A stretch of 43,587 nt of DNA, from NCBI GenBank assembly GCA_021824575.1, contig JAKAKJ010000013.1, positions 1 to 43,587 on the forward strand. The letters run 5' to 3'. This document shows, piece after piece, positions 9,862-32,340 of the stretch. Every line of letters begins with the position of its first letter. The stretch's first letter is position 1. The notes under the pieces were generated by a model. That model made no database searches, was not told where the DNA came from, and saw only the letters and a list, made by a program, of their open reading frames with translations. The DNA comes from Chloroflexota bacterium (GTDB lineage: Bacteria > Chloroflexota > Anaerolineae > Anaerolineales > Villigracilaceae). The position numbers and the translations under genes were made by a program.

Positions 9862-9910
9862 TCCAATTCTCCTTAATTCACCTCCGCCTCCAGGAGAGGA
9901 GCCGGGGGAA

Positions 9911-9950: not shown

Positions 9951-9963
9951 AGGGTTCAACCAC

Positions 9964-10044
9964 TTACAAAAACAGAACCGCGTCGACAATTGCGGCAATG
10001 TTGACGACTGTAATGTCGGACCAATTGCTCACGCCGCAATTATA
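9964..10044 (-). other. Candidate leader with -10 box, 22-codon ORF and internal hairpin
   Basis: On the minus strand a TATAAT (10044-10039) is followed six bases later by GTG at 10032, opening a 22-codon frame that ends at 9964. The conceptual peptide starts MSNWSDITVVN and is rich in Ile, Val and Leu (9 of 22). The same DNA holds an imperfect inverted repeat (GTCG at 9982-9985 to CGAC at 10005-10008). No good -35 is visible. This could be a leaderless leader peptide or only a structured leader RNA. Confidence 0.25.
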
Positions 10045-10063
10045 CTATAAGGCACAATCGGCT

Positions 10064-11008
10064 TTATTGTTCCAACGATACAAAATCAGGCGGATTGCCA
10101 AGCGGATAACCAGCGGCCGACGGCGCAATACGACGGATCAAACCGATCAAAACGTTTCCCGTTCCAACCTCGACGAAATTCGCAGTCCCCTGCCCGGCCA
10201 GGAGTTGAACCGTTTCCACCCAGCGCACGCGCGATTGCATCTGTGATTGGATGTCGGCGCGCAAATCAGCGGCCAATTGCATGGCTTTGGCGCTCACATT
10301 TCCAATGATTTGAATCTTTGCATCTTTGATGCCCGCCGCGCTGACCGCTTCATTCCATTCATCCTGAATGGACGCCATTAACTTTGAATGCGCCGCAATC
10401 GAAACCGCCAGCGGAATGGCACGCTTCGCGCCGGCAGCCTTTGCGCCCGCCATGGCGCGTTCGACTGCGGCTTTTGCGCCGGAGATGACAACCTGCCCCG
10501 GAGAATTATCATTCGCAACTTGTACTGCTTCACCTTCGCGGCTGGCATCGGCGCAGACTTTCTCGAGCGCTGGAATATCAAGATTCAAAATCGCCGCCAT
10601 GCCGCCGGGATTCAATTCACCAGCTTTCTTCATCAATTCGCCGCGCTTGCGGACGAGTCGCAAGCCTGATTCGAAAGATAGCGCGTCCGCTGCAGCGAGA
10701 GCCGACAACTCACCGAGAGAATGCCCGGCCAGCGCCGCCGGCTTCCAGTCCGGGTTAAGATGCGTGAAGACTCGAAACGAAGCCATCGAATGAACAAACA
10801 ACGCGGGTTGTGTGTTGATCGTGTCATTCAGTTCCGGCTCCGGCCCATCCCACATCAATTTGGAAAATGGAGAATGGAGAACATCATCCGCTTCTTCAAA
10901 AGTTTTTTGTGCAGCTTCATAAGTTGAAGCTAATTCTTTACCCATGCCGACAGCCTGCGAGCCTTGTCCCGGAAAAATGAATGCGGTGGTTTTAGAATCA
11001 AGTTTCAT
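10064..11008 (-). CDS. fabD: Malonyl-CoA:ACP transacylase
   Basis: FabD moves the malonyl group from CoA to acyl-carrier protein to feed type II fatty-acid synthesis. The 314-residue protein has the N-terminal FPGQGSQAVGMG, the nucleophile elbow GHSLGE with Ser near residue 97, the conserved Arg region GLRLVRKRGELM, the Gln-rich NDNSPGQVVISG and the His of SIAAHSKLM. The start follows an AAAGGA. It lies 58 bases after rpmF on the same strand, the common rpmF-fab arrangement, but no other fab gene follows here. Confidence 0.96.
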   Translation of the reverse strand: MKLDSKTTAFIFPGQGSQAVGMGKELASTYEAAQKTFEEADDVLHSPFSKLMWDGPEPELNDTINTQPALFVHSMASFRVFTHLNPDWKPAALAGHSLGELSALAAADALSFESGLRLVRKRGELMKKAGELNPGGMAAILNLDIPALEKVCADASREGEAVQVANDNSPGQVVISGAKAAVERAMAGAKAAGAKRAIPLAVSIAAHSKLMASIQDEWNEAVSAAGIKDAKIQIIGNVSAKAMQLAADLRADIQSQMQSRVRWVETVQLLAGQGTANFVEVGTGNVLIGLIRRIAPSAAGYPLGNPPDFVSLEQ

Positions 11009-17338: not shown

Positions 17339-18376
17339 TTATCGTGTTTCGGTTATTTTGCTGATCGTACGCGGTTGATCGGGATCGTAGCCCTTCGCAA
17401 GTGTCAAATGATATGAAAACAGTTGCGCCGGGACGATATTGACCAGCGGTGTCAACGCCTCCGGGATTTCAGCCTGGATTGCGACACGCGCTTGCGCCAT
17501 GCTCAACGCTGTATCCACGTTCGAGATAACGACAAGTTCGGCCAGCAAATCTTCCTTCAAATGCTCCAACAAACGCATCAACGAATCAGCGACTTTGCCC
17601 TTTGACACGACCGCCATCACCGGAAAACCGCGCGCCACCATGGCAATCGGCCCATGCTGAAAGTCAGCGGACGAATACGGCTCAGCTTCGACATATGTCA
17701 GCTCTTTCAACTTCAGCGCCCACTCATAAGCTGTGGCGTAATTGAAGCCGCGTCCCAGTACCACGCATTGCTGCATGTAGCGATAACGTTCCGCCGTTTG
17801 ACGGATTGTCTCATCCTGTTTCAAAACTTCATTGATCCATTCCGGGACTTTTACCAGCGAATCCCAATTGGATTTATCTCCGCCCAAAGCCGCGGACAAC
17901 ATCGCAATCGCCATCAATTCAGCGGTGTATGTTTTCGTGGCGGCCACCGCGTGTTCGGGTCCGGCTTGAACGTCGAAAACAAAATCTGATTGAGAAGCCA
18001 ACGGCGAGTCTGGCTCGTTCGTGATGGCAAGCGTCAAACATCCCTGACGTTTGCCTTCCCGCAAAACACTGACGATATCCGGTGATTGTCCTGATTGCGA
18101 AATGCCAACCACCAAAGCGCCCGCGAGATTCGGAGGCTGTTGATAATACGTGAACAGCGACGGCGTCGCCAATGCCAGCGGCAAACGATTGACTGCACCC
18201 AAAAGATAATTTGCATAACGACCGGCATTATCTGATGTGCCGCGCGCCGCGAGAAAAACGTACGAAACGTCGCGCGACTTGATCGCCCGCGCAATTTCCT
18301 CGACGGTTTTTCGCTGAGACGCTACAAGATTCGCGAGACGTTCAGGCTGTTCCAAAATTTCAGAATGCAAAGGCAT
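17339..18376 (-). CDS. SIS-domain glucosamine-6-phosphate deaminase/isomerase (NagB-II/GlmD-like)
   Basis: A 345-residue protein made of two SIS (sugar isomerase) domains, like the isomerase half of GlmS but without its glutamine-hydrolysing domain. The first domain has FLAARGTSDNAGRYANYLL and the phosphosugar loop GISQSGQSPD; AATKTYTAEL and the second-domain FQHGPIAM follow. Such free-standing double-SIS proteins include NagB-II and archaeal GlmD, which turn glucosamine-6-phosphate into fructose-6-phosphate and ammonia. Context supports that role; the related AgaS or fructosamine deglycases are alternatives. It begins six bases after nagZ, behind gaggaa. Confidence 0.85.
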   Translation of the reverse strand: MPLHSEILEQPERLANLVASQRKTVEEIARAIKSRDVSYVFLAARGTSDNAGRYANYLLGAVNRLPLALATPSLFTYYQQPPNLAGALVVGISQSGQSPDIVSVLREGKRQGCLTLAITNEPDSPLASQSDFVFDVQAGPEHAVAATKTYTAELMAIAMLSAALGGDKSNWDSLVKVPEWINEVLKQDETIRQTAERYRYMQQCVVLGRGFNYATAYEWALKLKELTYVEAEPYSSADFQHGPIAMVARGFPVMAVVSKGKVADSLMRLLEHLKEDLLAELVVISNVDTALSMAQARVAIQAEIPEALTPLVNIVPAQLFSYHLTLAKGYDPDQPRTISKITETR

Positions 18377-18382
18377 GCTTCC

Positions 18383-19996
18383 TCACAAATCCAAATGATA
18401 CCCCACCGGGCACAAACCTGGAATCGCAACAGGCAGGCGGCCGTAGAATTTTTGTTGTCCAAACAGCGCCGACGCCAACGCGTTCATCGAAGGCTCAAGG
18501 ATCGAATACGTACACACAAACGTCACCGCTTCAGGAAAAGCCATCAGATCATACGGAAGCCGCATCGCCACAACGATAACCGGCTTGCCGCTTCCCAAAA
18601 CTTTACGAACCAATGCGCTCTGGCCGGAATTGTTAAACGCATTCAATGTGGCAGCCACAATTAAATCATAAGACCGCGTTCTTTCAACAACAGAAACAAT
18701 TTCGTTTTCCGATGGCGAATGCGAAACGATGAACTCATCCACATTCAGATGAAATGCACGAAGAGCAGAAGCCAGATTCGGAATGATATAAGACGACGTA
18801 TCAGCCGGTGTAAGATCAATTGGTTTGGGGACAATCACTGCGATTCTTTTCCCGGACCCGAGGCGGAGCGGCAACATTCTGGCTTGATCCCGCACAAGAG
18901 TAACGGAACGCGCCGCGATCTCATCAGCGACTTTACAATGGTCCGCACAACCAACAACGTCTAAATTTAATCCAGTCTTTTGATTTATTACCCATTCTTT
19001 GAGCGAAGCAATTCTTTCGGCAGATGTTGCCAAATCCTCGCGGGAAAGCGTCCCATCTTTTGCAGCCCGCATCAGACTCTCGTGAACGAGTTGTTGATCT
19101 TTTGGGTCAGTTGTAATCAATAACAAGTCAGCGCCAGCCTTTGCCGCGCGGACAGCATTCGCGCCCAGGGCTTCGCCTTGCGTGATGGCATGCATGTCCA
19201 TCGCATCGGTAATAACAACGCCTTGAAATTTGAGTTGATCGCGCAAAAGATTTTTCAAGATGGCAGGCGAAAGTGTGGCGGGCGGCGCGTCAGAACCGTC
19301 AATGGCTGGCAAAGCCAAATGCGCGGTCATCACCATTTTCGTCCCGGCCCGAATCGCAGATTCAAACGGAGGGAATTCCACTTTGCGGAGACGATCCAAT
19401 GAATGAGGAACAACCGGCAAACCCAGATGCGAGTCGCTGGATGTGTCACCGTGGCCGGGAAAATGTTTGGCGCAAGCCGCGACACCCACAGATTGAATCC
19501 CATCCAGCATGGCAGAAGCCATTTCCGCAACCATTGCGGAATCTTCACCGAACGAACGAGTGCCAATGACTGGATTTTTCGGATTCAAATTCACATCGCA
19601 ACTTGGCGCGTAATTGACATTGACGCCCATCGCCGCAAGTTCACGTCCAAGCACCTCGCCCGCGCGGCGCGATAAATCTGCCGAACCCGTTGCGCCAAGC
19701 GCCATGTTGCCCGGCAATTGCGTTGTGCCATTGCCGACCGCCATTAATTGTCCGCCTTCCTGATCCACGGCAATCAGCAACGGAGGAAGCCCCGCTTCAC
19801 GCGCCGCATCTTGCAGCAGAGTTGTCAAATGTTTAACTTGTTGTGGGTTGTCAACGTTGAAACTTCTGAAAAGTGTAATCCCCGCAGGCTTGATTTTTTT
19901 GATTGCGTCACGAATTTCGGGTGATAACTCATCTTTGCCGCGAAAAGCCAGCATCAATCGCTGGCCGATCATTTCTTCAATTGAATTTTCCACCAC
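18383..19996 (-). CDS. nagZ: Glycoside hydrolase family 3 beta-N-acetylhexosaminidase
   Basis: A GH3 enzyme of 537 residues in the NagZ subfamily, which removes terminal beta-GlcNAc from muropeptides or chitin fragments. The diagnostic loop KHFPGHGDTSSDSHLGLP carries the His/Asp dyad specific to NagZ-type GH3 proteins. VDQEGGQL binds the N-acetyl sugar, and VITDAMDMHAI carries the nucleophile Asp. It has the extra C-terminal alpha/beta domain found in two-domain members. There is no signal peptide, so it should act in the cytoplasm on imported saccharides. It starts with GTG immediately after the permease stop, behind aaggatga. Some GH3 members of this kind have been described as phosphorylases. 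Confidence 0.92.
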   Translation of the reverse strand: MVENSIEEMIGQRLMLAFRGKDELSPEIRDAIKKIKPAGITLFRSFNVDNPQQVKHLTTLLQDAAREAGLPPLLIAVDQEGGQLMAVGNGTTQLPGNMALGATGSADLSRRAGEVLGRELAAMGVNVNYAPSCDVNLNPKNPVIGTRSFGEDSAMVAEMASAMLDGIQSVGVAACAKHFPGHGDTSSDSHLGLPVVPHSLDRLRKVEFPPFESAIRAGTKMVMTAHLALPAIDGSDAPPATLSPAILKNLLRDQLKFQGVVITDAMDMHAITQGEALGANAVRAAKAGADLLLITTDPKDQQLVHESLMRAAKDGTLSREDLATSAERIASLKEWVINQKTGLNLDVVGCADHCKVADEIAARSVTLVRDQARMLPLRLGSGKRIAVIVPKPIDLTPADTSSYIIPNLASALRAFHLNVDEFIVSHSPSENEIVSVVERTRSYDLIVAATLNAFNNSGQSALVRKVLGSGKPVIVVAMRLPYDLMAFPEAVTFVCTYSILEPSMNALASALFGQQKFYGRLPVAIPGLCPVGYHLDL

Positions 19997-20863
19997 TCAT
20001 CCTTTCACCGCGCCGGTCAAACCGCGCACAAATTGCCGTTGAAGCGTGACAAACAAAATCAAAATTGGGATCACGGTCATGACCACGCCTGCCGCAACGC
20101 CACGCGTATCGGATGCGAACATTCCCTGCAAAGCTACAAGTCCAACTTGCAGAGTCATGCGTTCGCGCGTGTGAAGCATCAGCGACGGCCAGAAGAAGTC
20201 ATTCCATTGATTGACAAACGTAATGATCGCCACGGTCGCCAGCGAAGGTTTAACCAGCGGCATCAAAATGCTCCACCAAATCCGCAATTCGCTTGCGCCG
20301 TCAATCCGCCCGGCATCAATCAAATCGTTTGGCACGGCTTTGAATGCCTGGCGAAGCAGGAAGATATTAAAGACGGTTGCGAGACTCGGAAAGATCAGAG
20401 CAATGATCGAATCGTAGTAATGGAAAACGTTGACAGCCAAAATAAAACTTGGAATGTAAGTCAATTGCGGTGGAACGATAAAGGTTGCCAGCAGCAAATA
20501 GAAAATCGCATCACGTCCGCGGAAGTTCATCTTGGCAAATGGGTAGGCGGCCAACGATGTAAAGAGCAAATTCAAAACAACAGTTGCAACCGCCACAACA
20601 ATGCTGTTGATAAAGAAATTTCCAACCGGCAATTGATTCCAAACCCGCACATAATTTGCAAAAGTCGGATGTTGTGGAAGCAATTGCAGTGGAATGGCGG
20701 CCACCGAATCCTGCGGTCCCTTGAGCGAGGTGGTTATCACCCAAACAAATGGAAAGACAGTTACAACGGCAATCACGCACAGGACGATGTACCAAAAAAT
20801 GGTTTCAAAAACCCGGCGAGTTCTTATGCGGGGGCGCGGAGTTTTCGCCTGTGTGCGGTTCAT
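19997..20863 (-). CDS. Carbohydrate ABC transporter permease (MalG-like)
   Basis: The second inner-membrane subunit of a CUT1-type sugar importer, 288 residues with six helices. The N-terminal helix is followed by the extracellular segment TSLKGPQDSV typical of MalG. The cytoplasmic EAA loop DAGRIDGASELRIWWSILMPLVKP contacts the ATPase. It overlaps the upstream permease by ATGA. The end is adjacent to nagZ, which ties the transporter to that hydrolase. Confidence 0.93.
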   Translation of the reverse strand: MNRTQAKTPRPRIRTRRVFETIFWYIVLCVIAVVTVFPFVWVITTSLKGPQDSVAAIPLQLLPQHPTFANYVRVWNQLPVGNFFINSIVVAVATVVLNLLFTSLAAYPFAKMNFRGRDAIFYLLLATFIVPPQLTYIPSFILAVNVFHYYDSIIALIFPSLATVFNIFLLRQAFKAVPNDLIDAGRIDGASELRIWWSILMPLVKPSLATVAIITFVNQWNDFFWPSLMLHTRERMTLQVGLVALQGMFASDTRGVAAGVVMTVIPILILFVTLQRQFVRGLTGAVKG

Positions 20864-21738
20864 GACTCAGTCTCCGTGCCGCTCTCCAGCAGCCGGATAT
20901 TTGCAATGGAGAAAGCGAGGGTAATTATCAAAAGCACCATCGCAATCGCGGATGCCATTCCAGCGTGATGATATTTGAAAGCCTGCTGCCATAAATAAAA
21001 CACCATCGTGACACCACTATTTAGAATTCCGCCCAGGCCGCCGGTCAAAATATAAATTTCATTGAACACTTCCAGCGCGGCGAGACTCGAAATCACCGCA
21101 ACGAACGTGATCTGCGGCCGAAGTCCGGGAACAGAAACGTGCCAATGTTTCTGCCACGCATTGCATCCGTCAATCACCGCCGCGTCATATAAATCCTCGG
21201 AAATGTTCTGGAGTCCGGCCAGAAAGATCATCATGTAATAGCCGAGTCCCATCCAGGTGGTCAGCAACATTGCAATTGGAAGTGTGTAAGCTGGCTCGGC
21301 AAGCCACTGGATCGGTTCCTTGATCCAGCCCAATGAAAGCAGGAGACCGTTGAGCAGGCCGTTTGTATCCAGCATGAGTTTCCACGAAATTCCTACCGCG
21401 ATGCTGCCGCTGATCACCGGGATGTAATAAAGTGCGCGAAAAGCATTGATGCCGGGAAGTTTTCGATTGACAATAATTGCAAGGATAATGCACAGAAAAA
21501 TCAAAACGGGCGTGACGAGCAAATAGATGAATGAATGTGCGAGAGCCTGCCAAAATACAGTATCGTGAATCAATTGCTGGTAATTCTTTAATCCAGTCCA
21601 GATGGGCGGAGTCACAATACTGTAATCGGTGAAGCTGTAATAGATCACCGCCACGATGGGATACAAAACAAAGACGCCGATCACGAGCAAGGCAGGTGTT
21701 AGAAAAAGGTACGGAGTGAACATAAATTTTTTGCCCAT
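20860..21738 (-). CDS. Carbohydrate ABC transporter permease (MalF-like)
   Basis: The first permease of the same CUT1-type importer, 292 residues with six predicted helices. The N-terminus has FLTPALLVIGVFVLYP, a hallmark of this group, and the EAA loop is DAAVIDGCNAWQKHWHVSVPGLRP. A longer frame begins at a TTG at 21774, but the ATG at 21738 follows ggagactcgc and gives the usual N-terminus. It couples to the next permease by ATGA. No ATPase gene is present in the window, so a shared MsmX/MalK-type ATPase elsewhere must energise it. Confidence 0.93.
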   Translation of the reverse strand: MGKKFMFTPYLFLTPALLVIGVFVLYPIVAVIYYSFTDYSIVTPPIWTGLKNYQQLIHDTVFWQALAHSFIYLLVTPVLIFLCIILAIIVNRKLPGINAFRALYYIPVISGSIAVGISWKLMLDTNGLLNGLLLSLGWIKEPIQWLAEPAYTLPIAMLLTTWMGLGYYMMIFLAGLQNISEDLYDAAVIDGCNAWQKHWHVSVPGLRPQITFVAVISSLAALEVFNEIYILTGGLGGILNSGVTMVFYLWQQAFKYHHAGMASAIAMVLLIITLAFSIANIRLLESGTETES

Positions 21739-21753
21739 GCGAGTCTCCGTTTG

Positions 21754-21787
21754 GGCTGGCCCTCTCAAGAACAAAAGAAGGCCAGCC
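21754..21787 (-). other. Intercistronic hairpin between binding-protein and permease genes
   Basis: GGCTGGCC (21754-21761) pairs perfectly with GGCCAGCC (21780-21787) over an 18-base loop, without a T run. In this position such hairpins often protect the binding-protein mRNA so that it is made in excess over the permeases; here that is inference. Confidence 0.45.
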
Positions 21788-21812
21788 GATTACATCGTAT
21801 TATCCTCGTGCG

Positions 21813-23216
21813 TTACGGAAGTAGTGCGTTGGCTTTCGTAACTGCGTCGTTCAACGCGGTTTGCGGATCAACACCGTTGAACAAAGCTTGCTGAATCGCA
21901 TTTAGAACGATTGTGTTAACGTCGGTCTTGTGCGGGATGGTCGGCACGATGTCGGCATACGTGGCAACGATGCCCTTCGCAAGCGGTTTGGCGCTGTCTT
22001 CGATCGCAACCGGTTTGGCTGAGAAGAACGGATCGTCGTAGGAAGCTGGAGTGGATGGATAGATGGAGACGATCTTCGCAAATTCCAACATGCTCTTCGG
22101 ATTGGTGAAGAACTGCGCCAGTGCGATGGACGCATTTGGATATTTGGTCTTCGCGTTGACAGAGATGCCCATTGAACCCTTGGCAATCACGCCAGACTTT
22201 CCTAAAGGCAGGGGCGCGACAGCCAAATAACCATACAGACCCGGATTATTCGCGCGCACATCACGGATCAAGTTCGGAGCCGTCTGGAAGAAAGCCGCCT
22301 TGCCGCTCTCAAACAAATCGAGTGCGACACGGTCTTGATCGGTCAGGAGCGCGGTCTTATCAACAGTTCCGGCCTTGACCATATCCACGTACATTTGAAG
22401 CCACTTTACCGCATCCGGTGAGTTGAACGTGAATTGCTTGCCGTCATCGCTGATGACTTTTACATTGCCCTCATAAACCATCTGCGATAGAAGATCGTTC
22501 ACGCTCAAGCGGATATCGCAAAGCGTTCCGGTCTTATCTTTGATCGTCTGGCAAAGCGCAGGAAGGCCGTCAATTGTCTTCGGAAAATCTTCCACCTTCA
22601 ACCCCGCCCCGCCCGTGTAGGTCACGTTGCCGCTTGCGTCTGTTTGCGGTGTTCCGGTGTAAATCTGCGTATTGATAAGCTCAACCGGGATGCTTTGATA
22701 CCACGGGAATTGATAGTTGACACCTTTGACCAGTTGTTCCTTCCACAAGCCGGGGAAATACATATCCTTTACACTCTGCGGAACTTTGTCATCCAGCGGA
22801 AGCAGCAAACCCTGGGTTGCGTAATCGCTGACCCAGCCTTCGCCTACAGACAGGTTAATCACGTCCGGCGCATTGCCTGCGGCAAACGCATTGTTCAAAT
22901 CCTGTTGGAAGGTTGCCTGATGATCTTCCCATTTGACCGTTACACCAGGATAAGCCTGATTGAAGCGGGCAATGGTGCTTTTGATGTAATCATCGAAAGT
23001 CGGGGACAGATAATATGTCCAGAATGTGATCGTCGCATTCGGTTCGACATTCGGAATAACCGCTTCGGGATTGGGACCCGGAGTGGGGGTCACCTCGACG
23101 ATTTGAGTCTGGATGACCTGCTGAGTCACAACCTGTGGGGTTGCTACAGCTGCAGGGCCGCAAGCCGTCAGCAAAATGCCGAGCAGAGCCAGCATCGCAA
23201 AAATTTTAGTTCGCAT
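21813..23216 (-). CDS. Sugar ABC transporter substrate-binding lipoprotein
   Basis: A 467-residue extracellular solute-binding protein of family 1 (CUT1 type). The signal ends in the lipobox LLTAC, and a Val/Gln/Thr/Pro linker (about 21-50, including VTPTPGPNP) tethers the domain. Mature motifs include TITFWTYYLSPTFDDYI, FNQAYPGVTVKWEDH and NAPDVINLSVGEGWVSDYA. It should capture an oligosaccharide, probably a GlcNAc-containing one given nagZ, the deacetylase and the kinase beside it. The ATG follows aaaaggagaagaaac. The 120-base gap before it contains a GACCGGTC palindrome (23243-23250) but no promoter I can defend. Confidence 0.93.
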   Translation of the reverse strand: MRTKIFAMLALLGILLTACGPAAVATPQVVTQQVIQTQIVEVTPTPGPNPEAVIPNVEPNATITFWTYYLSPTFDDYIKSTIARFNQAYPGVTVKWEDHQATFQQDLNNAFAAGNAPDVINLSVGEGWVSDYATQGLLLPLDDKVPQSVKDMYFPGLWKEQLVKGVNYQFPWYQSIPVELINTQIYTGTPQTDASGNVTYTGGAGLKVEDFPKTIDGLPALCQTIKDKTGTLCDIRLSVNDLLSQMVYEGNVKVISDDGKQFTFNSPDAVKWLQMYVDMVKAGTVDKTALLTDQDRVALDLFESGKAAFFQTAPNLIRDVRANNPGLYGYLAVAPLPLGKSGVIAKGSMGISVNAKTKYPNASIALAQFFTNPKSMLEFAKIVSIYPSTPASYDDPFFSAKPVAIEDSAKPLAKGIVATYADIVPTIPHKTDVNTIVLNAIQQALFNGVDPQTALNDAVTKANALLP

Positions 23217-23336
23217 GTTTCTTCTCCTTTTAATTTTGTTTGACCGGTCTTGAATAACGGATTGGCAGGAAAGGCGTCTTTTTGCTCATCCTCCTTTCGT
23301 TGGGCATTCGGGACGAATAAGGAAATTTGCAGGCAT

Positions 23337-24185
23337 TCAACCGACTCTGAGAATACGCTCGCTCACATCTTGATCAAAATGCTGAATAAGTCCGCGAACA
23401 AATTCCAACAGGTCCAATTTATCGTTTTCGATCAACAGCGTCATATCCATGCAATAGGAAAGGCCCGTAGTCAAATCCACGCCATGCGTTTCGAAATACG
23501 TGGCGTTTGCACGGCGGCGTCCCATCGAAGCCAGGTCATAGCGTTTACCGCCCGCAATCTGCGAATCAAAAACACCCAACAAAGCGGCCTGCAAATTCTC
23601 GTGCTCGGAAACGTCCATCGGCGACTTATCGGAATCCGCCATCCAATCCAGTGCGCGCCAGACCTCACACCCGAACAGTTTTTTCGGGCGTTTTTCCATT
23701 GGCAGGCCGCGAATTGCAGCGATGACTCTCAATGCGACGCTCACATGTGTATCGTGTTTGTCGGCAAGATTGTGTGTATAAACAAATTCGGGATTGGCGG
23801 CATCAAGCAATGCGACCAGGTCATCAACCGGCTCTTTTCTCGACACGTCCTTCACAATTTTGCTTGGATAATCCAACATAACTTGCGCCGCATATTCGCC
23901 GACAATTGCCGCCTTGCGCTGTTCCGTGAATCGAACCAGCCGCATCTCCTCATCCGAGTAATCTTTATACAAACCATCGCGCGGCGAACCGCGTCCATCG
24001 GTAACGACCGCGCCGGTGAACCATTTATCCTTTTGCTGGAAGCATTCCAGGATCGGGCGAGCTGCCATGATTTCAATATCATCTTGATGTGCGGAAACAC
24101 ACAGGTGAGTCGTGCGCGCCAATGCCTGTTCGGCGGGCATTTGATCAGGGATAAAAACTTCTGACGTGTCGAGATGAAAACGCAT
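23337..24185 (-). CDS. PIG-L family deacetylase
   Basis: A 282-residue zinc deacetylase of the PIG-L/MshB/BshB superfamily, which removes the acetyl group from N-acetylglucosamine-type sugars. The metal motif SAHQDDIEIMA (about 31-41) corresponds to the canonical AHPDDE, with Gln in place of Pro, and the later THNLADKHDTHVSVALRV holds the third zinc ligand His. There is no signal peptide, so it is cytoplasmic. It lies 11 bases after the ROK-fold kinase gene and before the sugar-binding protein. The context makes an amino-sugar substrate likely, perhaps replacing NagA or acting like archaeal Dac. A thiol-biosynthesis role is possible but unsupported here. Confidence 0.88.
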   Translation of the reverse strand: MRFHLDTSEVFIPDQMPAEQALARTTHLCVSAHQDDIEIMAARPILECFQQKDKWFTGAVVTDGRGSPRDGLYKDYSDEEMRLVRFTEQRKAAIVGEYAAQVMLDYPSKIVKDVSRKEPVDDLVALLDAANPEFVYTHNLADKHDTHVSVALRVIAAIRGLPMEKRPKKLFGCEVWRALDWMADSDKSPMDVSEHENLQAALLGVFDSQIAGGKRYDLASMGRRRANATYFETHGVDLTTGLSYCMDMTLLIENDKLDLLEFVRGLIQHFDQDVSERILRVG

Positions 24186-24196
24186 AATCGTCCTGT

Positions 24197-25609
24197 CTAC
24201 GAATTCAAAGATGGCAAACTTGCTGCGGCAACGGATTGTCCAATGCGCCGGATTTTTTCATCAGGCAAATGAAGTTGAACGCGTTCTGCCAGGTCGGGAA
24301 ACTCAGATTTCAAAACATTTTTCGCGCCTTCGAGCAATAAATCGCCGCCGCGTCCCGATGTGCAGCGTCCCAAAATCAAAACATGTTTGATGTCATAAAA
24401 ATCAGCGTAATGTGTGAGTCCGTAACCAAGATAAATTCCCATGCTCTGCCATATCTTGATCGCGCCTTCATGTCCCGTTTCCAATTTATCCTGAACAAAT
24501 GTGAGTTTGTCCGCGTCAGTCAATTCGGATGGAATTTCAATTCCGGCTTTGGGCGCAAGTCGAAAAACACATTGCTGCGAAAAATACGACGCGCCGCAGC
24601 CGCGATCCCCAGACCATTCCTCAACAGACGCAGATGGGTTGTCATCAATCGGCGCAAATGCCAATTCGTTCAACCAGCCCGTGATGTGTCCGTTCATATC
24701 CACATAACCCGCGGCCTCGCTCGAGCCAAGCGCAATGCCCAGAATGCCGTTATCTTCGATGGACATCGAGCCAGCCAGCGCCGTCACATCGCCATCGTTG
24801 ATGACTTCCAGCGGCACGTTCATTTCTTTTTGGATTCGCAAAAACAGATCGCGGATTTCATCAAAGCGATTCGCGGGAACAGATCGAAACAACGAAGCCA
24901 CCATCGGACGATTATTGATATAGATGCCCGCGGAGCTTCCACCAATCGCGTCCACGCGGGACATTTTAGCGGCCGCCGTTTTCAAAGCTGTGAGAATCTG
25001 CTGATAGTGATACGCGGGATCCGCGTGCTTGCGCGGCTCCCAAACCACTTCCTCGCTGTAGACAACTTCTCCATCCACCACCGCACTGGCTTTGCGGTCC
25101 GAGGCGCCGAGGTCAAAGCCGATGCGGCAGCCGTCTAAATGGCGGCCAAGCCGCTGTCCGGCCTCGCGCGAAGCGGGCACTTCATCCGGCTCGCAAGCAA
25201 TGACCGAAAATGGCTTCTCATAAACCTGTTCGCCCATGAAGCGAAAATCAAATTGACGTTCGCCATCGGTGCTGTAAACCTTGCGAATATACTCGCCGAT
25301 TGATTTCGGCCCACCGATATAAAGTCTGTGTCCGCCGCGCTGCCAGAGCAGAAACTTCACCAGTCTCTCAACATAATGCAAATTCTCAACGGCTTGCGGA
25401 TGATCTTCTGGAAACACCAATGTTTCATGAACAGAAATTTGATGATCGGCTCGTTCCAATCCAATGAGCAAAGGAACAGCCCCGCTTGCTCGCACAGTTT
25501 TTTCAAATGCTCGATTCGCCAAAACTGCCGGACGGAAATCTCCATCCAGCGGAGGGGCAAAAACAGGCCTGGCAAGATTCAACATTGAAGACAAGGCCGC
25601 ATTCCTCAT
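24197..25609 (-). CDS. Divergent ROK-fold (ASKHA) sugar kinase-like protein with extra N-terminal domain
   Basis: A 470-residue protein. The last ~300 residues have the ASKHA/ROK kinase layout: phosphate-1 loop GFDLGASDRKASAVVDG, a second segment IGGSSAGIYINNRP, the catalytic-Asp strand VINDGDVTALAGSM and the glycine loop GIALGSSEAAGYV. The usual ROK sugar motif (GExGH) and zinc motif (CxCGxxGCxE) are absent; NELAFAPIDD and GDRGCGASYF stand in their place. The first ~165 residues form a domain I do not recognise. A longer frame exists, but the ATG at 25609 overlaps the regulator stop by ATGA. A GlcNAc or GlcN kinase is the likely role from context. Confidence 0.78.
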   Translation of the reverse strand: MRNAALSSMLNLARPVFAPPLDGDFRPAVLANRAFEKTVRASGAVPLLIGLERADHQISVHETLVFPEDHPQAVENLHYVERLVKFLLWQRGGHRLYIGGPKSIGEYIRKVYSTDGERQFDFRFMGEQVYEKPFSVIACEPDEVPASREAGQRLGRHLDGCRIGFDLGASDRKASAVVDGEVVYSEEVVWEPRKHADPAYHYQQILTALKTAAAKMSRVDAIGGSSAGIYINNRPMVASLFRSVPANRFDEIRDLFLRIQKEMNVPLEVINDGDVTALAGSMSIEDNGILGIALGSSEAAGYVDMNGHITGWLNELAFAPIDDNPSASVEEWSGDRGCGASYFSQQCVFRLAPKAGIEIPSELTDADKLTFVQDKLETGHEGAIKIWQSMGIYLGYGLTHYADFYDIKHVLILGRCTSGRGGDLLLEGAKNVLKSEFPDLAERVQLHLPDEKIRRIGQSVAAASLPSLNS

Positions 25610-26814
25610 TCGAGAATTGGTTCCTGCGTAAATAAAAGAGAGTAGCCATCCAGCAAATTCAAAGCGGAGGCCCCCAACATGCAACCGCGGTAATCCAGTT
25701 TGGCAATTTCGATGCTTGTGCTCTCTGCAAGTTTTGAAAGTGTCGCCTGGCGGACTTTCTCGCGAACAGCATCCAGCCAACGCTGACCAAAGCGAGTCAT
25801 GTCGCCAGTCAAAACAAATTTTTGAATATTCAATGTGCTGATCAAGCTGGCGATCGAAAGGCCAAGATATTGCGCCGCGTCGTTGATCACTTTTTCGGCT
25901 AATGGATCGTTTGCATTGAATGCTTCCTGCAAAATATCCAAATCAATCTCATTCATTTTTGCCAAATCAGAAGAAGGAAAATCAGGAGCCAGTAATTTTA
26001 CGCGTTGGATAACTGCACGCGCACTGGCAAGCGTTTCCAAACATCCATGCTTGCCACAGCGACACAACAATCCATTTTCCTGAACCACCACATGACCAAT
26101 TTCGCCTGCGCCGCCGCCGTCGCCCTGGAACAATTTTCCGTTGATGAGAATCCCCGCGCCGATTCCCTGCCGCACATTGATCACAACGAGATTCTCGTCC
26201 GCGTTGTAACCGCCGCCGTAAACAAATTCGCCGATGGCTGCCGCCTGGCTGTCATTCACCACATGAACCGGCAATTGATATCGTTGCTGCAAAAGGTTGG
26301 CCAACGGCAGATTTTGCCAATCTAAATTAACCGCGTTGACAACCATACCTTCTTTGGTGTTGATCAGGCCCGGTGTGCCAACGCCAATCCCGACTAGCGG
26401 CTTCCATTGAAGCGTCAGAAGTCTGTCGAGAATTTCATAGACTAGAGCTAGCGCCTGTTCGCCATCGCGTCCGCTAACAGGCAGGCTGATCATGTCTTTC
26501 GTTTCCCCGCGCAGATTGACAATGGCTCCGCAAAACTGGTCATAAGCCAGATTAAGGCTAATCATGTAGCGAGCGTCTTTGACAAGACTCAACAAAATGG
26601 GAGACTTCCCGCCAATTGATAAACCAACGCCGACTTCTTCAACCAGGCCCTCACCCAACAGAATATCTACAACATCCGAAACGGTTGTGCGGGTCAGGCG
26701 CGTGACGCGGGCAATTTCCGCGCGGCTGATGGTTTGATTGTCGAAAATGGTTTTCAAAACCAAATCTCGATTGTGCTTTTTCGTTTCCTGATGGGTCGCT
26801 TTTTTGATTGCCAT
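25606..26814 (-). CDS. ROK-family transcriptional repressor (NagC/XylR type)
   Basis: A 402-residue regulator. The N-terminal winged helix-turn-helix (about 15-75, ISRAEIARVTRLTRTTVSDVVDILL) is followed by a ROK sugar-binding domain with GAGILINGKL, GEIGHVVV and the zinc motif CRCGKHGCLETLAS. Family members bind a sugar or sugar phosphate and leave DNA. It heads the amino-sugar operon, and an inverted-repeat operator overlaps its own start-site region, so negative autoregulation with induction by an amino sugar is the natural reading. It is coupled to the kinase-like gene by ATGA. Confidence 0.92.
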   Translation of the reverse strand: MAIKKATHQETKKHNRDLVLKTIFDNQTISRAEIARVTRLTRTTVSDVVDILLGEGLVEEVGVGLSIGGKSPILLSLVKDARYMISLNLAYDQFCGAIVNLRGETKDMISLPVSGRDGEQALALVYEILDRLLTLQWKPLVGIGVGTPGLINTKEGMVVNAVNLDWQNLPLANLLQQRYQLPVHVVNDSQAAAIGEFVYGGGYNADENLVVINVRQGIGAGILINGKLFQGDGGGAGEIGHVVVQENGLLCRCGKHGCLETLASARAVIQRVKLLAPDFPSSDLAKMNEIDLDILQEAFNANDPLAEKVINDAAQYLGLSIASLISTLNIQKFVLTGDMTRFGQRWLDAVREKVRQATLSKLAESTSIEIAKLDYRGCMLGASALNLLDGYSLLFTQEPILE

Positions 26815-26821
26815 TTCACCA

Positions 26822-26850
26822 ACTTTGTAAGTTCAATTTACTTACAAAGT
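26822..26850 (-). promoter_or_regulatory. Inverted-repeat operator of the ROK regulator
   Basis: ACTTTGTAAG (26822-26831), nine bases, then its exact complement CTTACAAAGT (26841-26850). It lies between the -10 box and the start codon, over the expected transcription start, the ideal place for a repressor. I did not find a second copy in the window. Confidence 0.75.
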
Positions 26851-26851
26851 C

Positions 26852-26880
26852 ATATTACAGCTTTTGAGGTGAAATGTCAA
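26852..26880 (-). promoter_or_regulatory. Sigma70 promoter of the amino-sugar operon
   Basis: On the minus strand a consensus TTGACA (26880-26875), a 17-base spacer and TAATAT (26857-26852). The ROK operator follows at once. It should drive the regulator, kinase-like and deacetylase genes, and possibly the transporter, nagZ and SIS genes as well. Confidence 0.8.
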
Positions 26881-26975: not shown

Positions 26976-28040
26976 TCAGCAAATTCTCGGCAGCATCTCC
27001 CCTGCTAACATATCCACCACGCGCTGACTGCCGATGGCGGTTCTCATCAGCACGCGCCCGCGCGGCTCGGCGGTCACTTCGCCTATCATCACCGCTTCTT
27101 CGCCGTACCGCGTTTGTCGCATGGCTTTCAACACCGCGTCCGCATCTTCATGCGCAACCATCGCAACCAATTTGCCTTCATTCGCAACATACAAGGGATC
27201 GAATCCCAGCATCTCGCACGCCGCGTTGACTTCTGGATGAACCGGAATTGTTGTTTCATTCAACATAATTCCAATATTCGATTGTGATGCGATTTCATTC
27301 AGCGTGGTTGCCAGCCCACCGCGCGTTGGGTCGCGCAGCACATGAACATTATCGCTTGCATTCAACATTGCATCAATCAAATGATTGAGGGGAGCAACAT
27401 CGCTTTGAATGCTTGACTCAAATCCCAACTCGCCGCGTGCGCCAAGCACCGCAATACCGTGATCACCGATCGTCCCGGATAAAATCAGGACATCACCCGG
27501 TTTGGCTTGCGAGCCGCCGATTTTTAAATTCGGTCGTACCAAACCGACACCTGCGGTCGTAACGTAAAGTCCGTCAGCCTTTCCCCTTTGCACAACCTTC
27601 GTATCACCCGCCACGATTTGAACATTCGCCTCCTGCGCGGCTATCTTCATAGACGCGATAACTCGCTGAAGCGTCTCGACGGATAAACCTTCTTCAAGAA
27701 TGAATCCTGCCGTCAAATAAAGAGGCGTCGCTCCGAGCATCGCCACATCGTTCACTGTGCCGCACACCGCCAATCGTCCGATATCGCCGCCGGGAAAGAA
27801 TAACGGCGAGACGACATGCGCGTCGGTGCTGATCGAAAGTTGCACGCCAGCCTTGGGTTCCAACGCCGCGGCATCATCTCCTGCGCGCAAAGCAGAATTA
27901 TCAAATGCAGGCAGAAATGCTTTTTGAATCAATTGATGCGTCATGCGTCCGCCCGCGCCGTGACCCATCACAATTTGTTCATTGTGCGGCAAAGGCGGCG
28001 CACAGACCGCACCTTCGATGTTTACCGTTTCATCATTCAT
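26976..28040 (-). CDS. hypE: Hydrogenase maturation protein HypE
   Basis: HypE dehydrates the carbamoyl group it receives from HypF to a thiocyanate on its C-terminal Cys, the source of the CN ligands of the [NiFe] centre. The 354-residue protein has the PurM-like ATP-binding features [42 protein letters not shown] and [16 protein letters not shown]. It ends in the diagnostic PRIC tail with the reactive terminal Cys. It overlaps hypD by ATGA and is the last gene of the operon. Confidence 0.97.
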
Positions 28041-29146
28041 GGCGCAACCGAATCCTTCATCTCGATCCGACCATACTTATAATATGCCGCGCACGCGCCC
28101 TCGGACGAAACCATCGTCGCACCAAGTGGATGTTCGGGCGTGCAAACGCTTCCAAACGCGGAACACTGATGCGGTTTCTTCAATCCCTGCAGAATCTGAC
28201 CCGCGATACACAACGGCGACTCATTTGTGGTGATTGCTTTCACATCGAATCTTTTTTCCGCATTGAACTCATCAAACTCAGGACGCAAGCACCAGCCGCT
28301 CATTGGAATCATTCCAATGCCGCGCCATTTGCGGTCACATTCCATGAACACTTGTTGAATTGTTTTCTGCGCGGGTTGGTTGCCTTCAAACGTCACCGCG
28401 CGCGAATAAGCGTTGCCAACTTCCATTTTGTCTGCTTCGAGCAACTGAACCGTCTGCAAAATTCCCTGTGCGATGTCAAGCGGCTCGAAACCCGTCACCA
28501 CCATCGGCACCTTGAATTTTTCCGCAAGCGACGGATATTCATGAAAGCCCATCACCGCACAGACGTGACCCGCCAATAAAAATCCCTGCACGCGATTTGA
28601 CGGCGAAGAAAGAATCGCGCTGATCGCAGGCGGCACGCGCACATGCGAAACGAGAATCGAATAATTCTTGAGCCCCAGTCTTTGCGCCTGCAAAACGCTC
28701 ATCACGTTCGGCGGCGCGGTTGTTTCAAAACCAATTGCAAAGAATACAACTTGTTTGTCCGGATTCTCCTGAGCAATTTTGACAGCGTCCAATGGCGAAT
28801 AAACGACGCGCACATCGCTGCCCTGCGCTTTCACCGAAAACAAATCGCTGCCCGAACCAGGCACGCGCAGCATGTCGCCGTAGGAACAAAAGATCACATC
28901 TGGACGCGAAGCAATGGCAAGTGCCTTATCAATCAACTCAAGCGGTGTCACGCAAACCGGACAGCCCGGGCCGTGCACCAACTCAATTTCGGCTGGCAGC
29001 AATAAGTCCAGACCGTGGCGCACAATGGCATGAGTCTGCCCGCCGCAGATTTCCATCAACGTCCACGGACGCGTCACCGTGCGGCAGATTTCGTCAATCA
29101 CGCCGCGCACTAATTTTGCGTCGCGGTATTCGTTGACGTATTTCAT
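28037..29146 (-). CDS. hypD: Hydrogenase maturation protein HypD
   Basis: HypD is the iron-sulfur scaffold on which, with HypC, the Fe(CN)2CO unit is built. The 369-residue protein has the family motifs [29 protein letters not shown] and [11 protein letters not shown], and a C-terminal Cys set ([40 protein letters not shown]) that binds the [4Fe-4S] cluster. A longer frame begins 114 bases upstream, but the ATG at 29146 forms an ATGA with the hypC stop and gives the standard N-terminus. Confidence 0.97.
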
Positions 29147-29394
29147 GCCGCAGGCCCAAGTTCCTGTTCGATGTCCGATATTTGCTTCAGCAAATCCAAA
29201 GTCTCTTGCGCTTCTTTCTCGCTCAACAGACTGATCGCAAATCCAACATGGATGACGCAATAATCATTGATCTTCGCTTCGGGAACGTAATCCAAACAGG
29301 CTTCGCGGAACACGCCGCCAAAGTCCACCTTCGCCATTTTGAGTCCGCCCTTTTCATAAATCTCGACAATTTTCCCTGGCACACCAAGGCACAT
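29143..29394 (-). CDS. hypC: Hydrogenase assembly chaperone HypC
   Basis: A small chaperone (83 residues) that carries the iron moiety with HypD and delivers it to the hydrogenase large subunit. It starts with the diagnostic [12 protein letters not shown], whose Cys2 is essential after Met removal, and has [15 protein letters not shown] and the [16 protein letters not shown] helix. It is separated from hypF by one base, with gagaggttaag as Shine-Dalgarno, and overlaps hypD by ATGA. Confidence 0.97.
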
Positions 29395-29395
29395 C

Positions 29396-31684
29396 TTAAC
29401 CTCTCAATCTATTTGCTGCAATCACCGCCTGCCCAAGCGATAAGCCGCCGTCGTTCGTCGGTACCTGGCGATGTAGGTATACCGTGAATCCGTCCACCCG
29501 CAATAGTGACAAAGTTCGTCGTAATAAAGTGAGATTCTGCCAAACTCCGCCAGACAACGCGACCTCGCGAATTCCAGTTTCTTCGCCTATTTTATTGACC
29601 GTCACTCGGATCGCATCGGCCAGACCGTTATGAAAGCGCGCCGAAATTTTGGAAGTGTGGACTCCGGACGCAACATCTTTTATCAACGCTTCAATTCCGC
29701 TTCTCACTTCGACTTCATTTTGATTCAGCGAAAACGAATAACTCTCCGCCTCATCCGGATCCGCCAAGGCTTCAAACTCGATGGCGGCCTGCCCTTCGTA
29801 ATTGACAATTTGCCGGACGCCCACCAATGCCGCCGCCGCGTCGAATAGACGGCCCATGCTCGACGTCATAGGCGTGTTGATTTTCTTTTCCAATTGAATT
29901 CTCAAAATATTTCGTTCTTCTTTATTGAATTCGGCGGCAGATGCAAGGCGTTCGTCCCATTCGATTCCCAGCGACCAAAGCAACGCTAATGCCGTACGCG
30001 CCGGCTTCTTGATGGATGCGTCGCCGCCGGGTAACGGGAAATATCGAAGATGAAATGGCCGTTGATACGATTTGTAATCCGCGATCAAAAATTCACCGCC
30101 CCAGATCGCGCCGTCTTCGCCGTAACCCGTTCCATCGAACGATAAGCCGATGACAGGTTGTGAGCCATCCAATCCGTGCTCTGCCATGCACGCCGCGATG
30201 TGCGCGTGATGATGTTGAACTCCGATGGCCGGCAGGTTATCGTGTTCAGCGCGTTCCAGCGCATAGCGCGTTGCCAAGTAATTTGGGTGCAGGTCATAAG
30301 CAATGGCTTCGGGTTTAACACGGAATAATCGCTCGAAATGTTCAACACCCTGCTCGAATGATTTCAGCGTTTCATAGTTTTCCATGTCGCCAATGTGGTG
30401 ACTCAGAAAGGCATAATTTTTATTCGTAATGCAAAAAGTGTTTTTGAGTTCAGAGCCAGTTGCCAGGATTTGCGGAACTTCAAACGGAAGTTTTACCGGA
30501 AAAGGAGAATAACCGCGTGAGCGGCGGATGGGATTGATTTCCTTTTCAAACACTCGCACCACCGAATCGTCACAGCGAATATAAATATCGCGGTTGTGCA
30601 TCAGAAACGCATCCGCCAACGACGATAATCTTTGACGCGCTTCATCGTTATCGGTAGCAATCGGCTCTTCGCTTAAGTTGCCGCTGGTCATGACAAGCGC
30701 TGGTGGAAAGTTATCAGTCTGCTCAAGAAGCAAATAATGCAACGGCGTATACGGCAGCATCACGCCAATAAAATCTTGATTTGGTGCGACTTCTTTTGCG
30801 ATATTCGATACTGATTTGCGGCGCAATAAAACAATTGGCCTCGCCGTTGATTGTAATAACTCACGTTCCGCATCGTTAACAAAACAATGCCGTTCGATTG
30901 TCGCAAGATCAGGCATCATCAAAGCAAATGGTTTGTCCACGCGCAGCTTGCGGCGACGGAGTTCAATGACAGACTCAGCATTGGTCGCATCGCAGGCGAG
31001 ATGAAATCCGCCCAAGCCTTTGACCGCGATGATTTTGCCTTCAACCAGCAATCGCCGCGTTTCTTGAATTGCATCACCATCAACGTTTGAAAGTTCCAAC
31101 TTTCCAACGTTCAAACGTTCCAACCAAACTTTAGGTCCGCACTTCGGACATGCCACTGGCTGTGCATGAAAACGCCGATTCGATGGATCGGTATATTCGC
31201 GTTCGCAATCGAGGCACATGGCAAAAGGCGCCATGGTTGTTTTGGGACGATCATACGGAATATCTTTGATAATGGTGAAACGCGGCCCACAATTTGTGCA
31301 GTTGATGAACGGATAACGATAGCGTCTGTCGTTGGGATCAAATAACTCACGCAGGCAATCGTCGCAAATGGCAACGTCGGGCGAGATCGGCTGGAAGGCG
31401 GAAGCAATGGATTCGGAGTGGATAATTTCAAATGAACGGAATCCGTTGGCAGGTCCGAACGAGACGGCCAGTTCATCAATGTGAGAAAGTGTCGGCGCTT
31501 CATCGCGTAACGCTTTGACAAACGCGTCCAAAACATCGCGTTCGCCGTCTGCTTCGATGTCCACGCCTGCGGACGTGTTTCGCACCCAGCCTTTGAGTTT
31601 CATACGTGTGGCAAGGTTATAAACAAATGGCCGAAAACCCACTCCCTGTACGATGCCGGTAATGTGGACGCGCAATCCCTGCAT
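29396..31684 (-). CDS. hypF: Carbamoyltransferase HypF
   Basis: HypF makes carbamoyl-adenylate from carbamoyl phosphate and ATP and transfers the carbamoyl group to HypE. Domain order in the 762 residues is as expected: acylphosphatase (ITGIVQGVGFRPFVYNLA, N-terminus), two zinc-finger units (CDDCLRELFDP..CTNCGP and CLDCEREYTDP..CPKCGP), a YrdC-like domain (KGLGGFHLACDA, VMTSGNLSEEP) and the Kae1-like carbamoyltransferase domain (HHHAHIAACMAEHG, GLSFDGTGYGEDGAIWGGEF). A longer frame begins at 31720; the ATG at 31684 overlaps the hypB stop as TAATG and starts the domain correctly. Confidence 0.97.
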   Translation of the reverse strand: MQGLRVHITGIVQGVGFRPFVYNLATRMKLKGWVRNTSAGVDIEADGERDVLDAFVKALRDEAPTLSHIDELAVSFGPANGFRSFEIIHSESIASAFQPISPDVAICDDCLRELFDPNDRRYRYPFINCTNCGPRFTIIKDIPYDRPKTTMAPFAMCLDCEREYTDPSNRRFHAQPVACPKCGPKVWLERLNVGKLELSNVDGDAIQETRRLLVEGKIIAVKGLGGFHLACDATNAESVIELRRRKLRVDKPFALMMPDLATIERHCFVNDAERELLQSTARPIVLLRRKSVSNIAKEVAPNQDFIGVMLPYTPLHYLLLEQTDNFPPALVMTSGNLSEEPIATDNDEARQRLSSLADAFLMHNRDIYIRCDDSVVRVFEKEINPIRRSRGYSPFPVKLPFEVPQILATGSELKNTFCITNKNYAFLSHHIGDMENYETLKSFEQGVEHFERLFRVKPEAIAYDLHPNYLATRYALERAEHDNLPAIGVQHHHAHIAACMAEHGLDGSQPVIGLSFDGTGYGEDGAIWGGEFLIADYKSYQRPFHLRYFPLPGGDASIKKPARTALALLWSLGIEWDERLASAAEFNKEERNILRIQLEKKINTPMTSSMGRLFDAAAALVGVRQIVNYEGQAAIEFEALADPDEAESYSFSLNQNEVEVRSGIEALIKDVASGVHTSKISARFHNGLADAIRVTVNKIGEETGIREVALSGGVWQNLTLLRRTLSLLRVDGFTVYLHRQVPTNDGGLSLGQAVIAANRLRG

Positions 31685-32340
31685 TAGCGTTTTACGTTTT
31701 GTGCAAGCCAGTTGGTCCACGCATCAAGGCCTTCGCCTGTACGACATGAAACAGGGAAAGTCACAACGCCAGGATTGAGCGCTTCGACACCGCGTTGAAA
31801 GTAATCCATCTTGAAATCGAGATAAGGCAGAAGATCAATTTTGTTGACGACCAATGCATCCACGCCGCGATACATGCCGGGATATTTATACGGCTTGTCG
31901 TCACCTTCAGGCGTGGAAGCGATCAAAACAGATTTGTGCGTGCCGAGGCGAAAGTCGGCGGGGCAAACGAGGTTGCCGACATTTTCAACGATGAGCAAAT
32001 CAAACTTTGAGAGATCAAGTTGATTGAGCGCACCCTGCAGCATGACCGCGTCGAGATGACATTCGCCACCCGTGTTGATTTGAATCGAGGCCTGCGCACC
32101 GGCCGCGGCGGCGCGGTCAGCATCGAGCGAAGTGGCGATGTCGCCGTCCACAACCGCGACGCGCAATTTGTCCGCGAGGCGCGAGAGTGTCTGTTCGATG
32201 ATGGAGGTCTTGCCCGCGCCGGGAGAAGCCATCAAGTTGACCGAAAAAACTCCCGCCGATTCGATGCGGGCGCGGTTCTCTTCTGCCAGACGGTCATTGG
32301 CACTTAGAATATTTTCAACAATCGGTATACGTTGTGTCAT
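31684..32340 (-). CDS. hypB: Hydrogenase nickel-incorporation GTPase HypB
   Basis: HypB is the SIMIBI GTPase that, with HypA, inserts nickel into the hydrogenase large subunit. The 218-residue protein has the P-loop ASPGAGKTSIIEQTL, switch region GDIATSLDADR and the metal-binding NTGGECHLDAVML at the dimer interface; NKIDLLPYLDF gives guanine specificity. It lacks the N-terminal His-rich stretch some HypBs use to store nickel. It overlaps hypA (ATGA) and hypF (TAATG). Confidence 0.97.
   Translation of the reverse strand: MTQRIPIVENILSANDRLAEENRARIESAGVFSVNLMASPGAGKTSIIEQTLSRLADKLRVAVVDGDIATSLDADRAAAAGAQASIQINTGGECHLDAVMLQGALNQLDLSKFDLLIVENVGNLVCPADFRLGTHKSVLIASTPEGDDKPYKYPGMYRGVDALVVNKIDLLPYLDFKMDYFQRGVEALNPGVVTFPVSCRTGEGLDAWTNWLAQNVKR

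Follow-up and report, generated by a model that had tools for sequence, protein, structure and literature searches.

Exchange of a PIG-L-family protein with NagA beside a ROK-fold kinase in a probable N-acetylglucosamine operon of Anaerolineae

Bacteria are known to break down N-acetylglucosamine (GlcNAc) through the NagK-NagA-NagB-II route, which comprises a GlcNAc kinase, a deacetylase and a SIS-type glucosamine 6-phosphate (GlcN-6-P) deaminase, NagA being the enzyme that acts on N-acetylglucosamine 6-phosphate (GlcNAc-6-P). NagA is also a usual marker gene when genomes are scored for GlcNAc use. Another closely related system is the chitin route of Thermococcus and Pyrococcus, which employs the PIG-L deacetylase Dac and the SIS deaminase GlmD. 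Here we examined an operon of eight genes on contig JAKAKJ010000013.1 of a Chloroflexota bacterium from the class Anaerolineae (assembly GCA_021824575.1), a stretch of 43,587 nucleotides hereafter referred to as the window, in which a ROK-fold sugar kinase (ROKK) is followed by a PIG-L/LmbE-family protein (PIGL). Our analyses favour, as the probable reading, an inducible operon for GlcNAc saccharides in which ROKK would produce GlcNAc-6-P, PIGL would take the step of NagA, and the SIS protein encoded by the last gene would deaminate GlcN-6-P; every substrate, the order of the steps, the regulation and the role of the pair outside Chloroflexota are what we infer.

The proposed chemistry is that of the NagK-NagA-NagB-II route, with the same kinase, deacetylase and deaminase steps, but the deacetylase of the operon belongs to the PIG-L family instead of being a NagA amidohydrolase, and the kinase has diverged from other ROK proteins and is extended at its N terminus. 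Like the Dac-GlmD route, the operon would break down amino sugars with a deacetylase of the PIG-L family and a deaminase of SIS type, whereas its SIS protein is NagB-II/GlmS-like, PIGL is not specially close to Dac, a NagZ-type GH3 glycosidase and an ATP-binding cassette (ABC) importer are encoded, and phosphorylation probably precedes deacetylation. In the pathway that we propose, the importer, with its ATPase encoded elsewhere, would bring in a short GlcNAc oligosaccharide, the GH3 enzyme would free GlcNAc, and ROKK would convert it to GlcNAc-6-P, from which PIGL would remove the acetyl group, thereby carrying out the NagA reaction with a different protein family. The SIS protein would then yield fructose-6-phosphate and ammonia from GlcN-6-P, and the ROK repressor encoded by the first gene (ROKR) would repress the operon at a palindrome until released by a sugar of the pathway. 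ROKK and PIGL would constitute a portable two-gene module; in other phyla the pair is met again without the remaining operon genes, and there it may feed GlcN-6-P directly into cell-wall synthesis.

One body of evidence for this reading comes from a survey of 298 genomes of the class for ROKK, PIGL and NagA, in which ROKK and PIGL were counted at an expectation value (E) below 1e-40 and NagA at E < 1e-60, as a stand-in for its family cut-off; the presence lists were compiled by hand, and neighbouring genes were taken partly from a simple frame picker, which sometimes chose the wrong strand. ROKK was found in 61 genomes, PIGL in 51 and both in 40. In the window ROKK (24197-25609, minus strand, 470 residues) precedes PIGL (23337-24185, minus strand, 282 residues), and the same succession on one strand was found in 34 of the 61 ROKK genomes. 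The two genes are no more than 300 bases apart in 29 of these and 0.9 to 2.5 kb apart in the other five; one further genome (G231) has PIGL beside a ROKK fragment. In 11 ROKK genomes (G030, G056, G084, G092, G103, G112, G128, G161, G210, G240 and G286) the place after ROKK is occupied by NagA, with a spacing between -3 and 299 bases in nine cases and of 1.2 to 1.3 kb in two. Ten of these NagA proteins are listed above the TIGR00221 cut-off, while the entry for G092 gives just the best E of that genome (7.2e-72). No ROKK locus has PIGL and NagA together, and no PIGL match occurs anywhere in the 11 NagA-type genomes. Neither gene was seen beside ROKK in 16 of the 61 (contig ends, split contigs and three loci covered only narrowly). 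A SIS gene of the same family follows NagA in seven of the 11 NagA-type loci, and 13 SIS proteins, five of them from such loci, are 52-68% identical to that of the window.

The exchange of the two partners has happened repeatedly. On a ROKK tree of 67 rows, 11 of them without a PIGL or NagA neighbour label, the partner label changes three times in a quick analysis or four in a careful one (3-4 in bootstraps), compared with about 8.5 in shuffles, and a tree constrained to hold the nine NagA-partnered rows as a single clade is worse by 90 log units and is rejected (approximately unbiased test, p 3.5e-5). Fifteen rows of this tree were entered from 16 loci hand-picked among the best 80 named loci described below, and it leaves out L159 and L162 (NagA-type loci in which no ROKK frame was called), L241 (94 residues) and ROKK fragments. 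Compared with the ROKK-adjacent NagA of G084, taken as reference, the ten other NagA proteins encoded beside ROKK show 58-67% identity, but five encoded at other places in ROKK genomes show 37-48%, so that recruitment beside ROKK seems to have involved a single lineage of NagA. No column of the ROKK alignment separates the nine NagA-partnered rows from the 47 PIGL-partnered ones, and 97 columns are invariant in both, which argues that the kinase has kept the same substrate with either partner. Since NagA, which acts on GlcNAc-6-P, stands in the place of PIGL beside the same kinase, phosphorylation probably comes before deacetylation. The same kinase and deaminase family, and partly the same regulator and site, surround either deacetylase, and the simplest account is that both carry out the same step; it is by this analogy with the 11 NagA-type operons that PIGL is predicted to be a GlcNAc-6-P deacetylase. 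At the level of whole genomes, NagA is present in 11 of the 40 genomes with ROKK and PIGL against 17 of the 21 with ROKK only (Fisher p 1e-4), and in 14 of the 51 PIGL genomes against 173 of the 247 others.

A first-pass annotation, made from the window alone, had proposed that a PIG-L protein and a double-SIS protein replace NagA and hexameric NagB in a GlcNAc operon. The absence of both enzymes holds for the window and also for the host genome (98.2% complete, 98 contigs), in which no NagA above the cut-off was found by a TIGR00221 scan and a distant nagA or nagB was likewise ruled out. TIGR00221 matched a single protein, at 22.7 bits (cut-off 225.65), which by its sequence looks like imidazolonepropionase. 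The NagB fold (PF01182) likewise had a single match, apparently a 6-phosphogluconolactonase, whose gene adjoins one resembling 6-phosphogluconate dehydrogenase; both names rest on a reading of the sequences and their neighbours. The replacement itself is supported: a co-regulated nagA elsewhere, which the annotation had named as refuting it, was not found in this genome, and neither was a nagB. Five further PIG-L proteins are encoded on contigs C31, C59, C15, C52 and C65 (L001-L004 and L006), none of which was matched with the PIGL of the operon as query at E 0.001.

PIGL belongs to the PIG-L/LmbE superfamily (PF02585, 53.9 bits, cut-off 28.2). A family review describes an HXDD plus H motif serving as metal ligand and base (PMC4101496), and this motif is intact in PIGL (H33, D35, D36 and H147), with His33, Asp35, Asp36, His144 and His147 invariant in an alignment of 30 sequences. 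Candidates for binding the phosphate are the invariant residues Lys214, Arg215, Arg223 and Arg224, or else Arg69 and Arg85. The predicted model (mean predicted local distance difference test score, pLDDT, 87.6) matches solved members of the superfamily, best BshB (6ull, Z score 21.7, root-mean-square deviation 2.5 over 203 aligned residues) and BC1534 (2ixd, Z 21.7), followed by GalB (20.6), Dac (19.6) and MshB (17.0). A phmmer search of PIGL against solved structures gave nothing at E 0.001; the profile search reached BC1534 at E 1.8e-5 and Dac only at E 0.9, and a designed repeat protein at its top, with five weak repeats, was taken as spurious. By Z, PIGL falls somewhat closer to BshB and BC1534 than to Dac, and by profile E closer to BC1534. 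TIGR00221, the NagA family, is not among its listed family matches, all of which are to PIG-L/BshB profiles. BshB, BC1534 and MshB have the fold and the metal motif in common with PIGL but are only 15-19% identical to it in the fold alignments, while PIGL has a conserved C-terminal motif of its own (GGKRYDLA..GRRRA) and a ROK-fold kinase as its neighbour. No match to PIGL was found among plasmids.

The double-SIS protein (17339-18376, minus strand, 345 residues; SIS 121 bits) scored under the cut-off of every specific family tried. Its best family score was with GlmS (254.5 bits, cut-off 381), in a match covering GlmS positions 256-596 only, followed by NagB-II, whereas the archaeal GlmD model (NF041128) reached 76.4 bits (cut-off 580) and the AgaS family 52.1 bits. 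Among solved structures the closest were a putative phosphosugar isomerase (3fj1, 163.5 bits) and a glucosamine-6-phosphate deaminase (8eol, 151.7 bits). By these scores the protein reads as bacterial, NagB-II/GlmS-like and not GlmD, and a deaminase of NagB-II type is predicted. That it might be the GlmS of the cell was rejected, as two homologues in GlmS-size frames (634 and 595 residues; 31% and 28% identity) are encoded elsewhere.

The first-pass annotation had placed deacetylation before phosphorylation, with PIGL acting on free GlcNAc or the GlcNAc disaccharide, ROKK as a glucosamine kinase and the SIS protein on GlcN-6-P, in the manner of the Thermococcus Dac route. We consider this order unlikely. 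It finds some support in the predicted fold of PIGL, which resembles Dac, and in the family review, which names PIG-L deacetylases of GlcNAc compounds, including the disaccharide GlcNAc2 for Dac, with no occurrence of the term 6-phosphate (PMC4101496). However, it would require ROKK to change substrate at each of the three to four changes of partner, yet no ROKK column separates the two groups, and Dac is no closer to PIGL than BshB is. With NagA holding the place of PIGL in related operons, that order is probably the reverse of the real one. Nor could the archaeal-type chemistry suggested in the same annotation be retained: that the two steps assigned to the SIS protein and PIGL are of archaeal origin was rejected on the GlmD score, the fold Z scores and the profile E values given above.

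By sequence, ROKK is borderline for the ROK family. Its score with the Pfam ROK family is 21.7 bits, just under the cut-off of 22.9 (22.5 in the genome scan, or 23.8, over the cut-off, when neighbours are counted), and against solved structures phmmer gave nothing at E 0.001 and a profile nothing at 0.01. The predicted model (pLDDT 90.4) nevertheless has the ROK fold across residues 159-470, where it matches an N-acetylmannosamine (ManNAc) kinase (2yhy, Z 25.8) and the GlcNAc kinase NagK (7p9l, Z 24.1) among other ROK proteins, and Asn271-Asp272 are invariant in an alignment of 30 ROKK sequences. While sharing the fold of the kinase domain with these two enzymes, ROKK differs from them in its borderline Pfam score, in its extra N-terminal part and in the lack of CxCGxxGC, the zinc motif of ROK kinases, which was not found in the alignment of 30. 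The N-terminal extension spans about 158 residues of mixed strands and helices; the fold search covered mainly residues 159-470 and these first residues barely, but two plant hexokinases align from residue 20, for which reason the extension may be a decayed kinase half. Phosphorylation of GlcNAc is predicted for ROKK by analogy, from its neighbours NagA and the NagB-II-type SIS protein. A ROKK homologue (48.8% identity) is also encoded on a Subdoligranulum plasmid record from gut Clostridia (OY725879.1, L259, 8947-10416); no PIG-L, NagA or SIS gene was seen by eye to adjoin it, and it is uninformative on function.

The pairing of ROKK with PIGL is more than chance. The adjacency recurs in related Anaerolineae, where the first-pass annotation had suggested that gene order be compared, and also beyond them. 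When named genomes were scanned with the alignment of PIGL, at least 569 relatives were obtained among at least 593 matched stretches, and among the best 80, which were analysed, ROKK lies directly upstream of PIGL in 69, at 226 bases or less except for one at 1343. The genome of Anaerolinea thermolimosa IMO-1 (L197) has ROKR, ROKK and PIGL together with two permease genes. The distances of the two proteins correlate (r 0.72 over 35 of the 38 loci named), none of 2000 permutations being as high. Titles outside Chloroflexota or unassigned account for 25 of the best 80 loci, comprising Hydrogenedentota, Armatimonadota and Acidobacteriota, together with single records of Planctomycetota, Thermotogae, Nitrospirae, Silvanigrella, Bathyarchaeota and 'uncultured bacterium'; the non-Chloroflexota records are metagenome bins, and their taxon labels may therefore be wrong. 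Some loci depart from the common layout. In family f18 (L150, L151 and L154) PIGL lies near the SIS gene on opposite strands with ROKK on another contig, which indicates that the pair can be split. L149 and L227, on the same contig, hold an operon of ROKR, PIGL and SIS without ROKK, in a genome without a ROKK match, where the kinase may come from elsewhere. In L058 (G253, 7741-10820) two genes were read by eye downstream of a divergent ROKK (53%), one resembling a methyltransferase and the other encoding a short PIG-L protein different from PIGL; NagA of this genome is far from the locus, and its ROKK groups on the tree with a Bathyarchaeota-labelled row, on a long branch.

Still less probable than the alternative order of steps is that the pair serves another acetamido sugar (N-acetylgalactosamine, ManNAc or one derived from peptidoglycan) or has a role outside catabolism, for instance in metabolite repair, and belongs to a GlcNAc operon only secondarily. 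Pairs outside Chloroflexota without GlcNAc genes around them would fit such a role, as would the ManNAc kinase being, by a small margin, the nearest fold to ROKK, and hydratase function is ascribed to one protein of LmbE fold, GalB (5cgz). Against it, NagA, the NagB-II-type SIS protein and the NagZ-type GH3 surround ROKK in Anaerolineae, and the AgaS score of the SIS protein is low. That PIGL makes a thiol precursor in the manner of BshB or MshB, and sits in a sugar operon by accident, is very improbable: BshB is among its nearest solved relatives, but the BshB1 model gives 22.9 bits against a cut-off of 182.5, ROKK adjoins it in most named loci, and it is exchanged with NagA.

The palindrome CTTTGTAAGTAAATTGAACTTACAAAG (26823-26849), just upstream of the ROKR gene, is the probable operator of ROKR. 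Among 55 distinct related ROKR genes, 34 have its consensus upstream with at most three mismatches and 48 with at most five; the best of 20 shuffles, which keep base composition only, gave 0/55 and 2/55, respectively. As the pattern was written after such regions had been seen, these counts describe conservation and are not an independent test. Repressor genes with fewer than 120 bases upstream, poor starts or duplicate upstream regions were skipped. In the host genome the palindrome is present in a single copy at three mismatches or fewer (reversed-pattern control, 0), no second operator copy that would indicate a wider ROKR regulon being found at that threshold. It also heads the NagA-type operons L052 and L060, with two mismatches each, so that the site is shared by no fewer than two operons that have NagA as their deacetylase.

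Several results weigh against the proposed GlcNAc pathway. L052 and L060 are the only two of the 11 NagA-type loci that carry the palindrome at three mismatches or fewer; L160 has it only at six, and for the remaining eight no start of the repressor gene was usable. The genome counts and Fisher tests ignore descent, and with a looser NagA threshold the contrast among ROKK genomes weakens to 15/40 versus 17/21 (p 0.0014). NagA is kept elsewhere in 14 of the 51 PIGL genomes (18 at the looser threshold), which speaks against strict exclusion, and 11 of the 51 lack ROKK at E < 1e-40. As to the proteins, PIGL is at most 21% identical to the solved PIG-L structures among those listed, the ROKK model fits the fold of ROK repressors as well (5f7r, Z 24.8), and the SIS protein reaches only 237 bits with NagB-II (NF046059) against a cut-off of 430. 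Outside Chloroflexota, the SIS gene, which 23 of the best 80 named loci have, was found in none of the 25 loci within the stretch examined, and a reading by eye of 12 of 15 chosen loci found no GlcNAc-pathway gene beside the pair in ten non-Chloroflexota ones, L217 having ROKR.

The operon as a whole occupies positions 17339-26814 of the window, all on the minus strand from 26814 downward with ROKR first and SIS last, and its eight genes stand in the single direction and order of the first-pass annotation, as confirmed by coordinates and by Pfam and NCBIfam labels. ROKR (25606-26814, 402 residues) is a ROK-family repressor of NagC/Mlc type (PF00480, 203.7 bits), with weak winged-helix matches and an NCBIfam NagC score of 211 bits, under the cut-off of 650; the start of ROKK is best read as the ATG at 25609, in a 4-base ATGA overlap with the ROKR stop. 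Downstream of PIGL lie the sugar-binding protein of the ABC importer (21813-23216; SBP_bac_1, 116.1 bits), a permease of MalF/UgpA type whose start codon is uncertain (20860-21774; BPD_transp_1, 38.7 bits; UgpA, 70.9 bits, under cut-off) and one of MalG/UgpE type (19997-20863; BPD_transp_1, 61.9 bits; UgpE, 136.7 bits, under cut-off). An ABC ATPase gene is absent from the operon, and the single match in the genome to the MalK-type C-terminal domain makes a shared ATPase plausible. The GH3 protein (18383-19996, 537 residues; Glyco_hydro_3, 280.9 bits) is a beta-N-acetylglucosaminidase of NagZ type by its nearest solved structure (6k5j, 332 bits), scores 204 bits with the NCBIfam beta-N-acetylhexosaminidase model NF003740, slightly under the cut-off of 207, and carries, read as AKHFPGHGDTSSDSH, the motif KHxPGxGxxxxDxH, the His-Asp signature of NagZ-type GH3 enzymes. 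Directly upstream of the operon, a run of [NiFe]-hydrogenase maturation-like genes (26976-32340, minus strand) includes a HypE-like gene with AIRS domains and, by eye, HypD-, HypF- and HypB-like genes.

Chloroflexi in sludge are reported to use GlcNAc (PMC6753630, PMC9942424), which in activated sludge comes from lysed cells (PMC6753630), and phosphotransferase system and nagAB genes were reported for one metagenome-assembled genome (PMC9942424). No description of a PIG-L GlcNAc-6-P deacetylase was found in the titles and abstract openings of the papers that our searches listed in the open-licence PubMed Central literature, preprints lying outside this scope. We regard as evenly poised the wider proposition that ROKK-PIGL is a widespread, self-contained module for salvage of GlcNAc to GlcN-6-P that replaces NagK-NagA in Anaerolineae and several other phyla, that PIGL is, within the searches made, the first PIG-L/LmbE enzyme acting on a free hexosamine phosphate, and that genomes scored as non-users for lack of nagA are in fact users. 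If it is true, NagA-based calls of GlcNAc use would be wrong in Anaerolineae and in other, mostly uncultured groups (37 of the 51 PIGL genomes lack NagA at E 1e-60, and 33 at E 1e-40). The proposal provides two uncharacterised and tightly paired protein families with a testable function and, if it holds, would add sugar phosphates to the substrates of the PIG-L family.

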